The notes under the pieces were generated by a model that was given only the letters and a program-made list of their open reading frames with translations, searched no databases and was not told where the DNA came from. Both the position numbers and the translations under genes were made by a program. 55,712 bases of DNA from Amanita rubescens (taxonomy: Eukaryota; Basidiomycota; Agaricomycetes; Agaricales; Amanitaceae), in the NCBI GenBank assembly GCA_015039365.1, contig WION01000348.1, positions 1-55,712 on the forward strand, in the 5' to 3' direction. This document shows, piece after piece, positions 1-6,055 of the stretch (position 1 is the first letter of the stretch; every line of letters begins with the position of its first letter).

Positions 1-3000
1 GATCAGCACATAATGAGATATGATTGCAACTGTTTGATGCATCACCACTTACTAACTGTTAGCAATTTTATGAGATTGACTAGCAGCACAACAAAGACAA
101 TAGTATTGTCACTTACTGCCTATTGATTGTGAGAAGAATGAGTAGTGGAAGAACCAGGGATGTAGTATTACCCACTTCCTGTTAGTCATAAGATGAGATT
201 TTATCATGGTGTTCTGCAGAAGATCACTGCAGCATCACTCACGGCCTTATATGGAGGGCAATATTTGATCAAATCATCTGACAGAAAGATGGCTCTAACT
301 CACTTCCTATCATTTATGGAATGGTATGAGTTGAATGATTAGCAGGGAAACACTGCACTGTCACCTACTTTCTGTTGGTATTGGGGTGATATGTATCCAT
401 CTCAATAAATTGCCAAGCACAAATGCAACACAATATCACTCACTGCTATCTGTTGTTCATGGAATGCAATTACATCCTTCCAGGCAGAAAAACAAAGACA
501 GTAGTGCTACTTACTTCCTGTTGGTCATGGGTGTGATCATTTGATGTAATGAGTCAGACAATGTACCACAAGACATTGTAGTGCCCTCACCAGCTATGTA
601 TGATCAATGCATAATGAGTGATTATACTGGCAGGCAAAAGTTCTTCAGTGTCACTCACATTCTTTTGGCCATTGAATGGGATGGGATGAGATTGCTTGGC
701 AGAAAACACTGCAGTATCACTCACCTCCTATTGGTCATAGAATGACAATGATTAGATCTGGTGTAAACAAGTCACAGAGCCACTCACTATCTGTTGGATG
801 TGATCAGACTGTCTGCCAGAACATCACTTGAGTGTCACTCACTTCCTGTTTGTCATGGGAAGAGGTTCAGGCAAAGGCCATGGAAGAAAGTCACCATGGT
901 ACTACTCACTTCCTGTTGGTTGTGATATGGCATGCAATTAGACTATCTGAAAAGTGGCACACACTTTCTGAAAACCAGCATAAGGTAGATTAATCTGATT
1001 GTCAGGAAGAATAGGATCTGAATGCTAGTAACACTCACTCTCTGTTGGCCCTTGGATAAGATGTAATCACATCATTGCATGATAACTCACTTGCTGTGGA
1101 CTCTGGATTGTGTACATGTGGTGTAGAGAGGCTGTCAGGAAAAAAAGCTACCCCATCACTTACAAGCTGTTGGTTATGCAATAGACATCAGAAAACTGCC
1201 TGACAGACAAAATTTTGTGCCACTTGCTTCCTGAGATAAAGAAACACATGACCAGGCTGCTTCAGTTTGGCCAAAAAATGGTGCACTTTTACTCACAACC
1301 TGTTAACAGATTTCATCAGACTCTCTGCTAGCACATACAGCACCATTATTTACAATCTGTTGATTATTGCACAAAACATGATTAGGATGCCTGATAGGAA
1401 TGACTGCATGTCACCTCCTGTTTGTCATGAGATGAGTCTTGAATAATTGCTTGACAGAAGAACCTGAAGCATGACTTACAATCTGTGGTTGATGTCATGA
1501 GAAGTGATTGGACTACATGGCAGGAAAAGACTGGATTGCTACTGACTTGCTGTTGGTTATGAGATAGGATATAAATACTCAGATCTTAAAGCACTCATAC
1601 CTTCTGTTCATTATGGAGTGTATTGTGATCAGAGATACTGCCTGATGAACATTGCAATGTTACTTACCTGCTGTTGGTCATGATGAGATGTACATGTTCA
1701 AACAAGTGGGATGGGATGAGTTTACTGCCACTCACAAGCTACTCAATGTCACAGTGAGGATGTGTTTCAAAATGACCATGCAGGAACATTGCAGTGTCAC
1801 TCACAAACTGTTATTATCACATGAGATATGATGATTGTATGAGGTGGTAACAAATTTTACTAACATCCTGTTATGATAGAATGTTGTGATCAGATTCCTA
1901 GAAAAAAAGTGCAGCAATAATACCATAGTCTATTGATCATGGGAAGAGATATCGATCAAACTGCATGAATGAAAAATGTTGCAATGTTGCTCACCCACTG
2001 CATATGTTGAGAGTGAATCAAATGAGACAGCTAATGGAAAATCACTGCAGTATCACTCAACTATCTGTTGGTATGGTGTAAGATGTGATCAAAGTGTCTG
2101 ATGGAAGACACTGCGTACTACTCACTTCCTATTTGTCATGGAATAAAATACATATCATCAAGCTATATGTGAGAAGAAATGCCATGCAACTTACTGACTA
2201 TTAGTCAAGAGATTAGGTGTACCAGTTTACTTGCAGTGAAAAATTCATGCCAGAATTACTCACTTCCTGTCAGTCATCAGGCAGCATGTGATCAGACTAG
2301 AGCATCTGGCAAAAAGTACTGCTCACCTGCTGTTGGTCAAGGGATGAAATGCAATAAGACTACCTGGCAGGGAAAGGGTAGTGTTGCTTACCTGCTGATG
2401 GTCATTGAATGAGATTTGATCCAGTTACTTGGCAGAACAACATTGCAGTGACTGTACTCACTTGCTGTTGGTGATGGATATGATGTCATCATTGCCTAGA
2501 AACAATTCCTGCAGTGTTACTCACAAGCTGCTCATACATCATGAGATTTGGTCAGATCAGCCAACAGGAATTACTCACATCCTATTGTGTAATAAGGAGT
2601 GATCAGACTATTACTGCAAAGATTCCAAAGTCACCCACAACCTATTCCCATCATACATATGAGATGTGATCAAAAAATCCTATATCATCACAACTCACAA
2701 CCTGTTGGTCACCAGAAATGTAATGAGATTGGCTCCCTGATACAAAAGTGTTTATTGGCACTTACACTCTGGAGGTCACATTATGAAAAGGATGGATGAG
2801 AGAAAAGCACTGCAGTAACTTACAGGCTGTTGGTCATGGTAAGACTACATTTCTGAAGGCCACTGCAGTGTCACTCACCCACTGTTTGCCATTGATATGA
2901 TGTGATTATCTTGTTTTCATAAAGTATGCTGGCCCTACTCACCCACTATTGGTCATAGGATATGATGCAAACAGATGAGAAACAGGAAACAAAGCATCCA

Positions 3001-4783
3001 CTCCTACTCACTTCCTGTTTGTCATAGAAGATTAATTTTATCAGACTGCTTTGCGGAAAATTGCGGGCCTCCTGTCATCATAACATTGGATGTAATCAGA
3101 CCCCAAGTAATAAAAAAACAATGCAGGATCACTTACAAGCTTTGGAATGGCATGTGGTATCATCAGAGCATTTAAGACAAAAACTGCACTGGCACTTACA
3201 ACCTATTTATTATGAATTGAGACAGGAATTAGAATGTCTGGTAAAAGGACTCTAGTGTAACTGACAGACTGAATGACAGGTAATCTGAGGCCCCAAAGAA
3301 CATAAGTGAAGTTCCACTCACTTGCTGTTGGTCATCAGAAGAAAAGTGATTAAATTGGCTTGTATATGTCACTTGCCCACTATTGATCATGGGAGAAGTT
3401 TTAATCAGTCTTCCTGGCAAAAATACTTTGCTCACTCCCTGTTTTTTTTAGGGTGAGGTGTTCAGGATATATAAAGAAAATCAGCACCACTCACAATCTG
3501 TTGGCCATATGTGGTCAAACAGCCAGGAAGAGGCAGTTTTACTCACTTGCTGTTGTTGGTTATGGATGTGATGTGATCAGGCCACTCATTTGAGAGATGT
3601 GTCACTCACCCCCTGTGATTCATTAATGAGATGTGATAAAATTGTCCAGTAGAAAATGCAACACTGTTACTCACCCCCTGTTGTTATGTGATAAGATGTA
3701 TGTAATCAATTGCCTGACAGAAAAATACACCACAGTCACTCACTTGCTATTTGTCATAAGACATGGTGCAAGAAAACTGTGAGGATACCTAGTGTCACTC
3801 ACAAGCTATTCCCATGGGATGAGGTGTAATCAGTCCATCACAATAAAAATATCACAGCATCGCTCACAATCTGTCAATAATGGGTGTGATGTATCAGACT
3901 GCCTGACAAAAAAGCAATGCAGCATCATTTATGGACCTTCTGTTGTGAAGTATGGATGTGGTTAAATTGTTCAATAGAGAATAGTGAAATTACCCTCACT
4001 TGCTGTTGGTCATATTATAATACAAAGATTGATTGTGGTGCAGAAGGCCAAGGACTCCTGGCCACCCACCTTCTGTTGGAATGGGATGAGATTCAAATGC
4101 TATTTCTGGTAGTAATGTAGATAGCTCACAAGCTAATGGTCACAGCATGAACATCATCAGATTGTCCACCAGAGCAAAACTGTATTGTCTTGCTCACTGT
4201 CTAACAATCATGGGACAAGTTTCATTAGACTGCCTGGTGGAAAAATGACAACTGCAGAGTCATTTACTTGCTGTTGGTTGTGGTGGGTGATATGATTAGA
4301 TTTCTGGGCAGGAAAAAAGACTATTGTGTCACTTACTGACTAATCATATCATGAAATGTGATTAGGCTGTCTGGAAAAACACAATGCAGGATCACATACA
4401 TGCTGTAGTACTTAGTATGATCAAACTGTTACAAAAAACATACTGCAGTATCACTCACTTCCTGTTCATGATAACGAGGTATGATCAAATTTCCCAAAGA
4501 AATGATGCTGAAGCATCACACACAAGCTGTTGGGAGTGAGATGTAATGTGATTAGAATTTCTAAAACACTGTAGTGTCAAGCCATGTGTCTTACATTTTT
4601 TTCATCCTGTTCAATGTGCCATGATTGAGCACATCAGTGCAAGGGGATGTCAATACACTTACAACCTATTACATACTTCAATTTTTGCATGCCTCATTAA
4701 TATTGAAGGAACATACTGCTACAATACTCTATCCTTTATCTTAGATTTTTTAACATTCCCATTAGAGGGTGCCACACACTCAC
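1..4783 (-). repeat. Tandem array of ~73 homologous introns separated by one-codon micro-exons
   Basis: Diverged units recur about every 64 bp (range ~52-76). Read on the minus strand, each unit is a complete fungal intron. It starts GTGAGT or GTAAGT, has a branch-like CTGAT, CTCAT or CTTAC near the 3' end, and ends CAACAG, AATAG or AAG. Between the acceptor of one unit and the donor of the next lie exactly 3 nt, and these 3 nt vary while both flanks stay conserved. Three exons are longer: 6 nt at 444 and 1924, 12 nt at 4595. Other low coordinates include 53, 117, 176, 243, 304, 369, 515, 591, 659, 725, 788, 843, 910, 1039, 1164, 1297, 1480, 1601, 1805, 1995, 2126, 2264, 2462, 2699, 2943, 3137, 3322, 3547, 3744, 4000, 4268, 4459 and 4663. 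A few donors are GC (1228, 3377) or weak (3069, 3937). The array is in phase with the GTPase exon ending at 4784 and runs off the left edge. No transcript evidence is available. Confidence 0.8.
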
Positions 4784-6055
4784 CCAATAGTGTGGAAAGT
4801 GGATCAGAACCAACATGAAAATTATCTTCCATCTGGAATCCCCTGTGGCCAAAATACATCTAAAGATTGTGAAATTCAGAGTAATGATCCTAATGTGATT
4901 TCTTACTTCAGTGCAGCTTTGATGCAAATATTGACATTGTTCATCTGTGTTGAGACAAACAACTGGAGAAGACTAGCATCATCAATTACATCAGCAGTCC
5001 TCTCAGTCAATTCTGGACAGTTATTCCCTGGAATATCCATATCTGTTGAGCAACATTAGGACACAATATATTTAGGTTTTTTGTTTTAATTTCTACCTTC
5101 CAATCGCACATAGGCTTTTGGGGGATATCTTGTACTCAGGACTTTAGGAAGATAAACTCCCTGAAAAGTCTTATCAGCATTTTCTCTAGCCTTCTCCCAC
5201 TTATCTTCAGCTTCATTCAACTGAGTAGATTCTTGAATTATTTGACCATCAAATTTGGTGAATATCACTACCAAAGGCACTGCAAATGTATCATTCAGTT
5301 GAGAGTTGCAAAAAAAGGCTGAGAGGCAGCTTGCCAACTCAACCAAATATTATGACAATGTGTAATTGGCTGCAGGACTAACCTTTCCCAATGCCTTTGG
5401 CAAAAAATTCAAGCTCTGCAGATAGAAGAGGACGAGGACTGTCCATGGGTATGCAGTACCTATAAAAAGCTTAGCCTGTTTACTGTTGAAAAGAATAAAC
5501 AACATAAATACCAAATTGCATGTAATTGATCTTTAACTCGAGTTGCACTTGACCTCTTATCAATAAATTTCCAGACATTCATTAATTCCTCGCTTGCACC
5601 AGCTTCAAAACCCTGAGAGTCATGGAAGATAAAGTTGCTTCCAGGGTATGTAATTTGGTGTTCAATATCATGAATGCCTCGCTATAATCTATTGCATCTG
5701 ATCCAATTGTTCATTCTCATAAGTCAACTCACCTCCATTGATGGTGTCAAATGTATGGTGGAAGGAACCAATTGTTGATCTAAAGCACAGTGAATACAGA
5801 TACATAAGTAGGTGAGGGTTTAGTTTAGCTCACCATTCTGATCATAAATGACAGGCTCTGTCCCACTTTCTACACCACAGACCTTCTCAAGAATGGTTGT
5901 TTTGCCTGCATTGGCCCTTCCTATGATAAGAATCCGAAAATGGGGGCATTTGTATTGTTCCTTAAGCACTTTGATATATCCCACATCAGTCTCTGCAAGG
6001 CACAAGTCTGAATATTTGACATACCTGATACATGTGCACCAGCAGTCTCTGTCAT
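4784..6055 (-). CDS. P-loop GTPase of an expanded agaricomycete family; ordinary exons 1-8, continuing into the micro-exon array
   Basis: Hand-spliced exons are 6055-6025, 5992-5834, 5779-5733, 5681-5512, 5459-5383, 5279-5097, 5042-4907 and 4859-4784. All phases agree, giving 293 residues without a stop. The G1 P-loop GRANAGKT is at residues 35-42, the G3 motif DSQG at 100-103 and the G4-like TKFD at 169-172. A hydrophobic stretch at about 280-287 precedes FPHYW. The motifs resemble the many uncharacterised GTPase-like proteins of Agaricomycetes, so GTP binding is likely but the cellular role is unknown. The start ATG at 6055 needs a 32-nt first intron, which is very short; a later start is possible. 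The last exon ends in TGG followed by GTGAGTG, a good donor, so the reading frame is handed to the micro-exons at 4663 and below. Reading through instead gives 15 more residues and a stop at 4736-4738. Confidence 0.82.

Follow-up and report, generated by a model that had tools for sequence, protein, structure and literature searches.

Predicted single-codon exons in series within a GTPase gene family of the fungus Amanita rubescens

Contig WION01000348.1 of Amanita rubescens (assembly GCA_015039365.1, contig C276 in our numbering) was analysed over its entire length of 55,712 nucleotides, referred to below as the window. It begins with a long array of splice-like motifs on the minus strand, downstream of a GTPase gene, and the locus raises the question of whether the triplets between these motifs are codons of that gene. 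An earlier note on this DNA had proposed that the array, if spliced, would provide a protein tail assembled one codon per exon. Our analysis indicates that it is very probably the middle of the GTPase gene, cut into single codons by predicted introns of approximately 61 nt, with the codons being spliced together. The support comes from the sequence: the spacing of the motifs, the scarcity of stop codons, the conserved coding exons on both sides in intact paralogues, residues common to paralogues, and intron-free homologues for two subfamilies.

Parsing of the minus strand from position 4783 to position 1 gave 73 introns with a median length of 61 nt, the first donor lying at 4783. Of the 72 exons between these introns, 67 measured 3 nt and two 12 nt, with single exons of 6 nt (449–444), 4 nt and 33 nt. 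By eye, the 4-nt call (2064–2061) corresponds to ATA preceding a GTTGAG donor, the 33-nt call resolves into a 6-nt exon (1929–1924) followed by GAT (1867–1865), and TTA (55–53) comes after the last acceptor; with these three readings the number of 3-nt exons rises to 70. The layout given in the earlier note, with about 73 minus-strand intron units, 70 exons of 3 nt and longer exons at 444, 1924 and 4595, was recovered in full, the first of the longer exons by the parse, the second only by eye and the third as the 12-nt exon 4606–4595. The second 12-nt call (4728–4717) falls in the region where the gene enters the array. On the minus strand of the array the pattern YAG-Nk-GTRAG has 48 matches at k = 3 and 0 to 3 at each other k between 0 and 12, and the remaining 50.9 kb of the window contain four matches at k = 3 on both strands together. 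Because position 1 is the end of the contig, the array in the window is truncated. Contigs C276, C235 and C333 all end within arrays, and arrays may therefore break the assembly.

Units of similar length sharing a common consensus would also be expected of an untranslated minisatellite in which the splice-like motifs are incidental. We give this explanation close to no chance, as the motif is confined to one strand of the window, the 3-nt spacing holds despite intron lengths that range from 50 to 70 nt between the 5th and 95th percentiles, stops are few, the flanking coding exons are conserved, and contiguous homologues described below carry the decoded residues.

The same organisation was identified throughout the 75.7-Mb assembly. 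A DNA query representing the GTPase produced 47 genome matches (the best 40 of 233 candidates were scored), and from these paralogues we took 20 regions, each at most 10 kb long. An array was present in 19 of the 20, in some of them as the first units alone with the contig ending there; in the sole array-less region (L029 on contig C765) the GTPase is cut by a foreign insert after the region of exon 7. A first parse used a Viterbi procedure whose training started from generic consensus sequences for donors and acceptors, with exon lengths of 1–60 nt equally weighted and no prior for 3 nt. It returned exactly 3 nt for 58 of 63 exons in the window; over 17 array regions (17 of 21, with four short or truncated regions omitted and near-identical copies included), 858 of 952 exons had this length. 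These genes show the many consecutive, tiny and phase-symmetric internal exons by which a microexon-rich gene is recognised. A second parse with a 3-nt prior recovered weak sites and was the source of the decoded segments; its remaining exons were mostly 6, 12 or 15 nt long.

The pattern CAACAG-N3-GTGAGTGA has 2177 matches genome-wide and its reversed control 2, while the corresponding CAACAG-Nk-GTGAGTGA patterns with k = 0, 2, 4 and 6 have 2, 14, 9 and 25, respectively. As this strict pattern detects 42 of the 486 units in the decoded arrays, the genome may contain single-codon exons of the order of 10^4, the plain quotient of 25,191 being a rough figure. A query with the C-terminal exon alone gave at least 150 genome matches (the best 150 of 216 candidates scored), many of them paired, which probably represent two haplotypes. 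For an undivided copy of the L027-type segment, a genome query yielded no candidates to score, a result that carries no weight either way. Thirteen of the 23 genome-wide matches with 2-nt or 4-nt spacers lie on contig C749 (2135–4150), possibly a decayed array or the product of assembly indels. The array on contig C8 (77456–80160) stands out among those listed by its regularity, many of its units recurring at intervals of precisely 56 nt or multiples of that length.

The triplets between introns have the properties of codons. None of the 486 triplets from eight representative loci is a stop, against 21.8 predicted from position-specific base composition, and when the triplets are joined the other two frames contain 8 and 58 stops, each of 478. 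Genome-wide, TAA, TGA or TAG occupies one of the 2177 N3 triplets. Codon choice in these exons also differs from that in ordinary exons of the GTPase family: 3 of the 486 single codons have C at the third position vs 143 of 732 ordinary ones, two-fold codons end in T or C at 89:0 vs 99:59, and the ratio of xAA to xAG is 125:26 vs 79:65. This pattern fits a codon choice bent by splicing, in which the last base precedes a donor and the codon end has to avoid forming an additional AG acceptor. Constraint on the residues themselves was assessed in four paralogue pairs. The mean BLOSUM score of changed residues was higher than in simulation in two pairs, both including locus L027 (p = 0.0115 and 0.008), and not in the other two; unchanged codons exceeded simulation at p < 0.05 in one of the four.

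Comparison of intact paralogues defined the downstream end of the array. A conserved Ile codon is followed by a zero-length exon, another single codon, and then the C-terminal exons, which measure 51 nt (ELFSLFG type; 57 nt in L034) and 25 nt (PTACQVLA type) before a final exon of the AKLSFWINKPF type; their boundaries were set by eye and against the proteins P0001 and P0025. In all 16 loci that have this landmark, near-identical copies counted, the site consists of an AG abutting a GTNAGT or GCAAGT donor; nine other regions were not evaluable. This adjoining of acceptor and donor is the hallmark of a recursive (zero-nucleotide) splice site. Because conserved C-terminal coding exons come after complete arrays, the array represents an internal segment of the gene and not the protein tail that had first been proposed.

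To search for contiguous counterparts we used a spliced model of 455 amino acids, for which the window supplied the GTPase exons and the majority of the array codons, and paralogue L023 the remaining codons and the C-terminal exons, the 25-nt exon being absent. Among 5.8 billion proteins it had 1008 hits, of which 120 were listed, and among these listed matches three JGI proteins of 445 to 478 amino acids span 99 to 100% of the model; their contigs are roughly 1.5 kb long. Comparison with 27 homologous protein sequences identified two clear counterparts of decoded segments. P0025 aligns in order and ungapped with 41 decoded residues of L034, 27 of them identical (z 29.7, 300 shuffles), and by eye its GTPase part resembles P0005, the A. 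rubescens model on the contig of L034. P0026 aligns ungapped with 55 decoded residues of L033, 29 of them identical (z 19.7); five of the 55 belong to one 15-nt exon. The match of L040 to P0024 is gapped (z 10.2) and that of L039 is weak (best z 5.3). These two ungapped counterparts, together with the 3-nt spacing and the near absence of stops, support the codon-by-codon splicing suggested in the earlier note, as applied to an internal segment.

P0026 was the sole hit among 130 candidates when the segment and C-terminal part alone served as the query. In this protein the decoded segment is followed by VCDIAQFSECQSHLNYCVT, with which the sequence stops. At the orthologous position, the introns read VCEMPQFSEIPVTHPCL in L033 and L035 and VCEMPQFSEIPTHPNSS in L038, and translate as VCEMPQFSEI.... 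When 977 array introns were scored against the end of P0026, the L038 intron ranked second with a score of 45. The case for a retained intron leans on the orthologous position because the score alone is not decisive. As its end reads as an intron retained at that position, P0026 has the appearance of an array cDNA, and the simplest reading is that it derives from a related species with the same type of array, splicing having taken out the introns upstream while a single one stayed in the transcript.

Three observations on individual sequences were made during these comparisons. Within the array of L034, at approximately position 2035, GTAAGT comes immediately after an AG. The codons on either side encode Leu and His, which are adjacent in P0025, and this unit seems to have lost its codon. 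The GTPase domain of P0025 is about 21 residues shorter than that of P0005, as though part of an exon had been skipped. The undivided 15-nt exon in the middle of the segment encodes PEMKR, LWIRK and SQKRK in L033, L035 and L038, respectively, and varies strongly between these close paralogues.

Several of the results count against an array that is spliced codon by codon. The constraint on its residues is visible yet modest. Of the 41 residues of L034 that match P0025, 39 were called by the parse and two were read by eye in stretches that it had left unsplit. For L023 and L027, which have the same tail type as the window, comparison with ten homologues gave no match (best z 2.0 and 0.5, respectively). 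The top score against the end of P0026 (48) belongs to an intron of L040, the introns of L033 and L035 are outside the ten best, and 60 shuffled queries against the 977 introns gave a mean of 31.9 and a maximum of 45, equal to the score of the L038 intron. That the JGI contigs are cDNA is deduced from their size and freedom from introns. Finally, in the predicted A. rubescens model P0057 (407 amino acids), the C-terminal exons come straight after the GTPase, with no array residues in between.

P0057 is also what would be expected if the array were skipped, the GTPase being spliced straight to the C-terminal exons or ending at the array, with the 3-nt spacing as a relic of a repeat. The other seven of the eight public A. 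rubescens gene models compared stop at or soon after the GTPase, in agreement with such skipping, and skipping isoforms may coexist with the long form. As a full explanation we nonetheless judge it highly improbable: stops are nearly absent from the triplets, codon choice tracks residue and splice site jointly, and the decoded residues are present in contiguous homologues. If the array is spliced as we propose, these eight models illustrate how annotation hides array genes. By their length, most of the listed Amanita family proteins (250–355 amino acids) would stop at the GTPase. The same would hold in A. brunnescens, A. polypyramis and A. muscaria, a hint that arrays of this kind may lie hidden in these species too.

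In the AlphaFold2 model of P0001 (mean pLDDT 81), a confident GTPase domain and a helix are followed by a confident helical C-terminal part. The low-confidence stretches at residues 295–305 and 321–354 appear by position to match the part that is divided into single codons in A. rubescens. Among the fold matches listed, immunity-related GTPases (GM4951 and Irga6 in the PDB) scored best, though only slightly above other GTPases.

The array introns share one consensus across subfamilies, and introns of the ordinary GTPase part do not resemble it (identity 0.448 vs 0.456 for shuffled sequences). We compared introns within the arrays of L040, L041, L042 and L044, excluding pairs differing by more than 10 nt in length as well as locus L043. 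The 247 pairs with at least 85% identity share the preceding codon in 26 cases and the following codon in 25; when paralogues are compared at orthologous positions, the corresponding counts are 55 and 57 of 69. Since near-identical introns mostly flank different codons, the introns appear to have been copied without codons. Both features by which introners are recognised, near-identical introns at non-homologous positions and copies lacking the flanking coding sequence, were thus found in these pairs, with conversion confined to introns as an alternative. On this evidence the array introns probably spread between codons already present.

Tandem duplication of the whole intron-plus-codon unit, with the copied codons later diverging under selection, would equally account for the single consensus. 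Of the eight listed paralogue insertions of at least 30 nt, three are whole units (two of these being the same event) and five have other lengths, some at the end of the array; the whole-unit differences amount to one unit in L027 vs L023 and two units in L033 and L035 vs L038. In L040, adjacent introns are slightly more similar than distant ones (0.689 vs 0.651), and the sharing of flanking codons rises with intron identity from 2–4% to about 10% per side. Against duplication, a flanking codon is shared in only about 10% per side among pairs of at least 85% identity, and in the two most similar pairs (identity 1.00 and 0.99) the codons differ on both sides. We consider growth of the array by duplication rather unlikely, yet a possibility of some weight.

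Based on these comparisons, we propose that the array arose when one ancestral intron was copied into the boundaries between pre-existing codons, by introner-like insertion or intron-confined conversion, followed by occasional gain or loss of whole intron-plus-codon units. In the transcript, the spliceosome would most likely remove the array introns one after another, and the codons would join into a variable segment located between the GTPase domain and the C-terminal helical domain. A 3-nt exon has no space for the factors of both flanking splice sites simultaneously. Because this leaves no room for exon definition, each array intron would be recognised as a unit (intron definition) and neighbouring introns would be removed at different times. 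If one unit were skipped, the protein would lose one residue and the reading frame would be maintained. More tentatively, an intron family may have invaded nearly every codon boundary so that the in-frame skipping, gain and loss of units edit a hypervariable recognition loop, both in evolution and by alternative splicing. The separate idea that a retained intron always introduces a stop or a frameshift fails, with 79 of 510 introns being stop-free multiples of three.

Small exons are also a feature of the micro-exon genes of schistosomes. For the 1-nt exon of Arabidopsis APC11, intron definition and the successive removal of two introns were suggested, with 3 nt cited as the smallest exon characterised earlier (PMC4674806), and the two introns flanking plant microexons are likely removed consecutively (PMC8831610). 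These tiny exons are included in mRNA, as would be the array exons, for which joining is deduced from sequence; in those genes one or two are adjacent, whereas A. rubescens has dozens of consecutive phase 0 exons of one codon in many genes of a family. Aphid bicycle and megacycle genes likewise form fast-evolving families with many small exons (PMC9168663). Since the megacycle gene encodes a protein of approximately 2000 amino acids with more than 100 microexons, its exons are much longer than one codon, and nearly every internal exon of the bicycle genes is in phase 2 (PMC9168663), as opposed to phase 0 in the array.

Introners and introner-like elements resemble the array introns in being near-identical at many different positions (PMC4457414, PMC9860276), whereas the array copies crowd consecutive codon boundaries of one gene segment, as read in loci of the GTPase family alone. 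The zero-length exon at the array exit has the juxtaposed acceptor and donor of zero-nucleotide ratchet points in recursive splicing; ratchet points were described within long introns (PMC8605326), and here the site occurs at a fixed position of the family in a chain of short introns. In Trichoderma, the Xlr2 microexon is functional and regulated, and such microexons were stated to be previously undescribed in filamentous fungi (PMC11121469); it is a single microexon, in contrast to an array. Among the literature matches listed, with subscription papers outside the coverage, we found no report of a run of single-codon exons, only single tiny exons or families with small exons. The array type might best be regarded as an extreme microexon gene, one component of which is introner-like. 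Should RNA confirm it, exon size would come near the coding minimum, in series and genome-wide, and one could test whether intron definition alone splices introns 3 nt apart, in which order and with what error rate. The arrays also suggest repeated placement of introns between adjacent codons, which bears on intron gain.

The GTPase gene and the features of the array in the window are listed in Table 1. The joined GTPase exons contain GRANAGKTT, DSQG and TKFD, which we take to be the P-loop, DxxG and TKxD motifs, and these motifs and the fold matches of the homologue P0001 together identify the product as a P-loop GTPase.

Table 1. Predicted exons of the GTPase gene and features of the array in the window
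Feature	Positions	Strand	Basis or remark
GTPase exon 1 (ATG)	6025..6055	-	By eye; least certain exon, as the intron would be just 32 nt
GTPase exon 2, P-loop GRANAGKTT	5834..5992	-	Reading of the sequence and homologues
GTPase exon 3	5733..5779	-	Reading of the sequence
GTPase exon 4, with DSQG	5512..5681	-	Reading of the sequence
GTPase exon 5	5383..5459	-	Reading of the sequence
GTPase exon 6, with TKFD	5097..5279	-	Reading of the sequence
GTPase exon 7	4907..5042	-	Reading of the sequence
GTPase exon 8, acceptor CCACAG, phase 1 at end	4784..4842	-	Frame open also in L025 and L027 (by eye)
Proposed 2-nt exon CA, phase 0 restored before array	4717..4718	-	Same bases in L023, L025 and L027
Array, 73 or more predicted introns of median length 61 nt, with mostly single-codon exons between	1..4783	-	Parses; stops at contig end
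12-nt array exon (DEKN)	4595..4606	-	Parses
6-nt array exon (ACTATG)	1924..1929	-	By eye; missed by the automatic parse
6-nt array exon (ATAGCA)	444..449	-	Parse; exact match to the pattern with a 6-nt spacer

The gene had been thought to enter the array in phase. Its last long exon in fact ends in phase 1, and judging from the phase, the 2-nt exon CA probably restores phase 0 in the window as well as in L023, L025 and L027; the second parse favours a 12-nt exon at this place. Against the Pfam family MMR_HSR1, the window model scored 19.3 bits, under the cut-off of 21.9, and the homologue P0066 scored 25.2 bits, over it.

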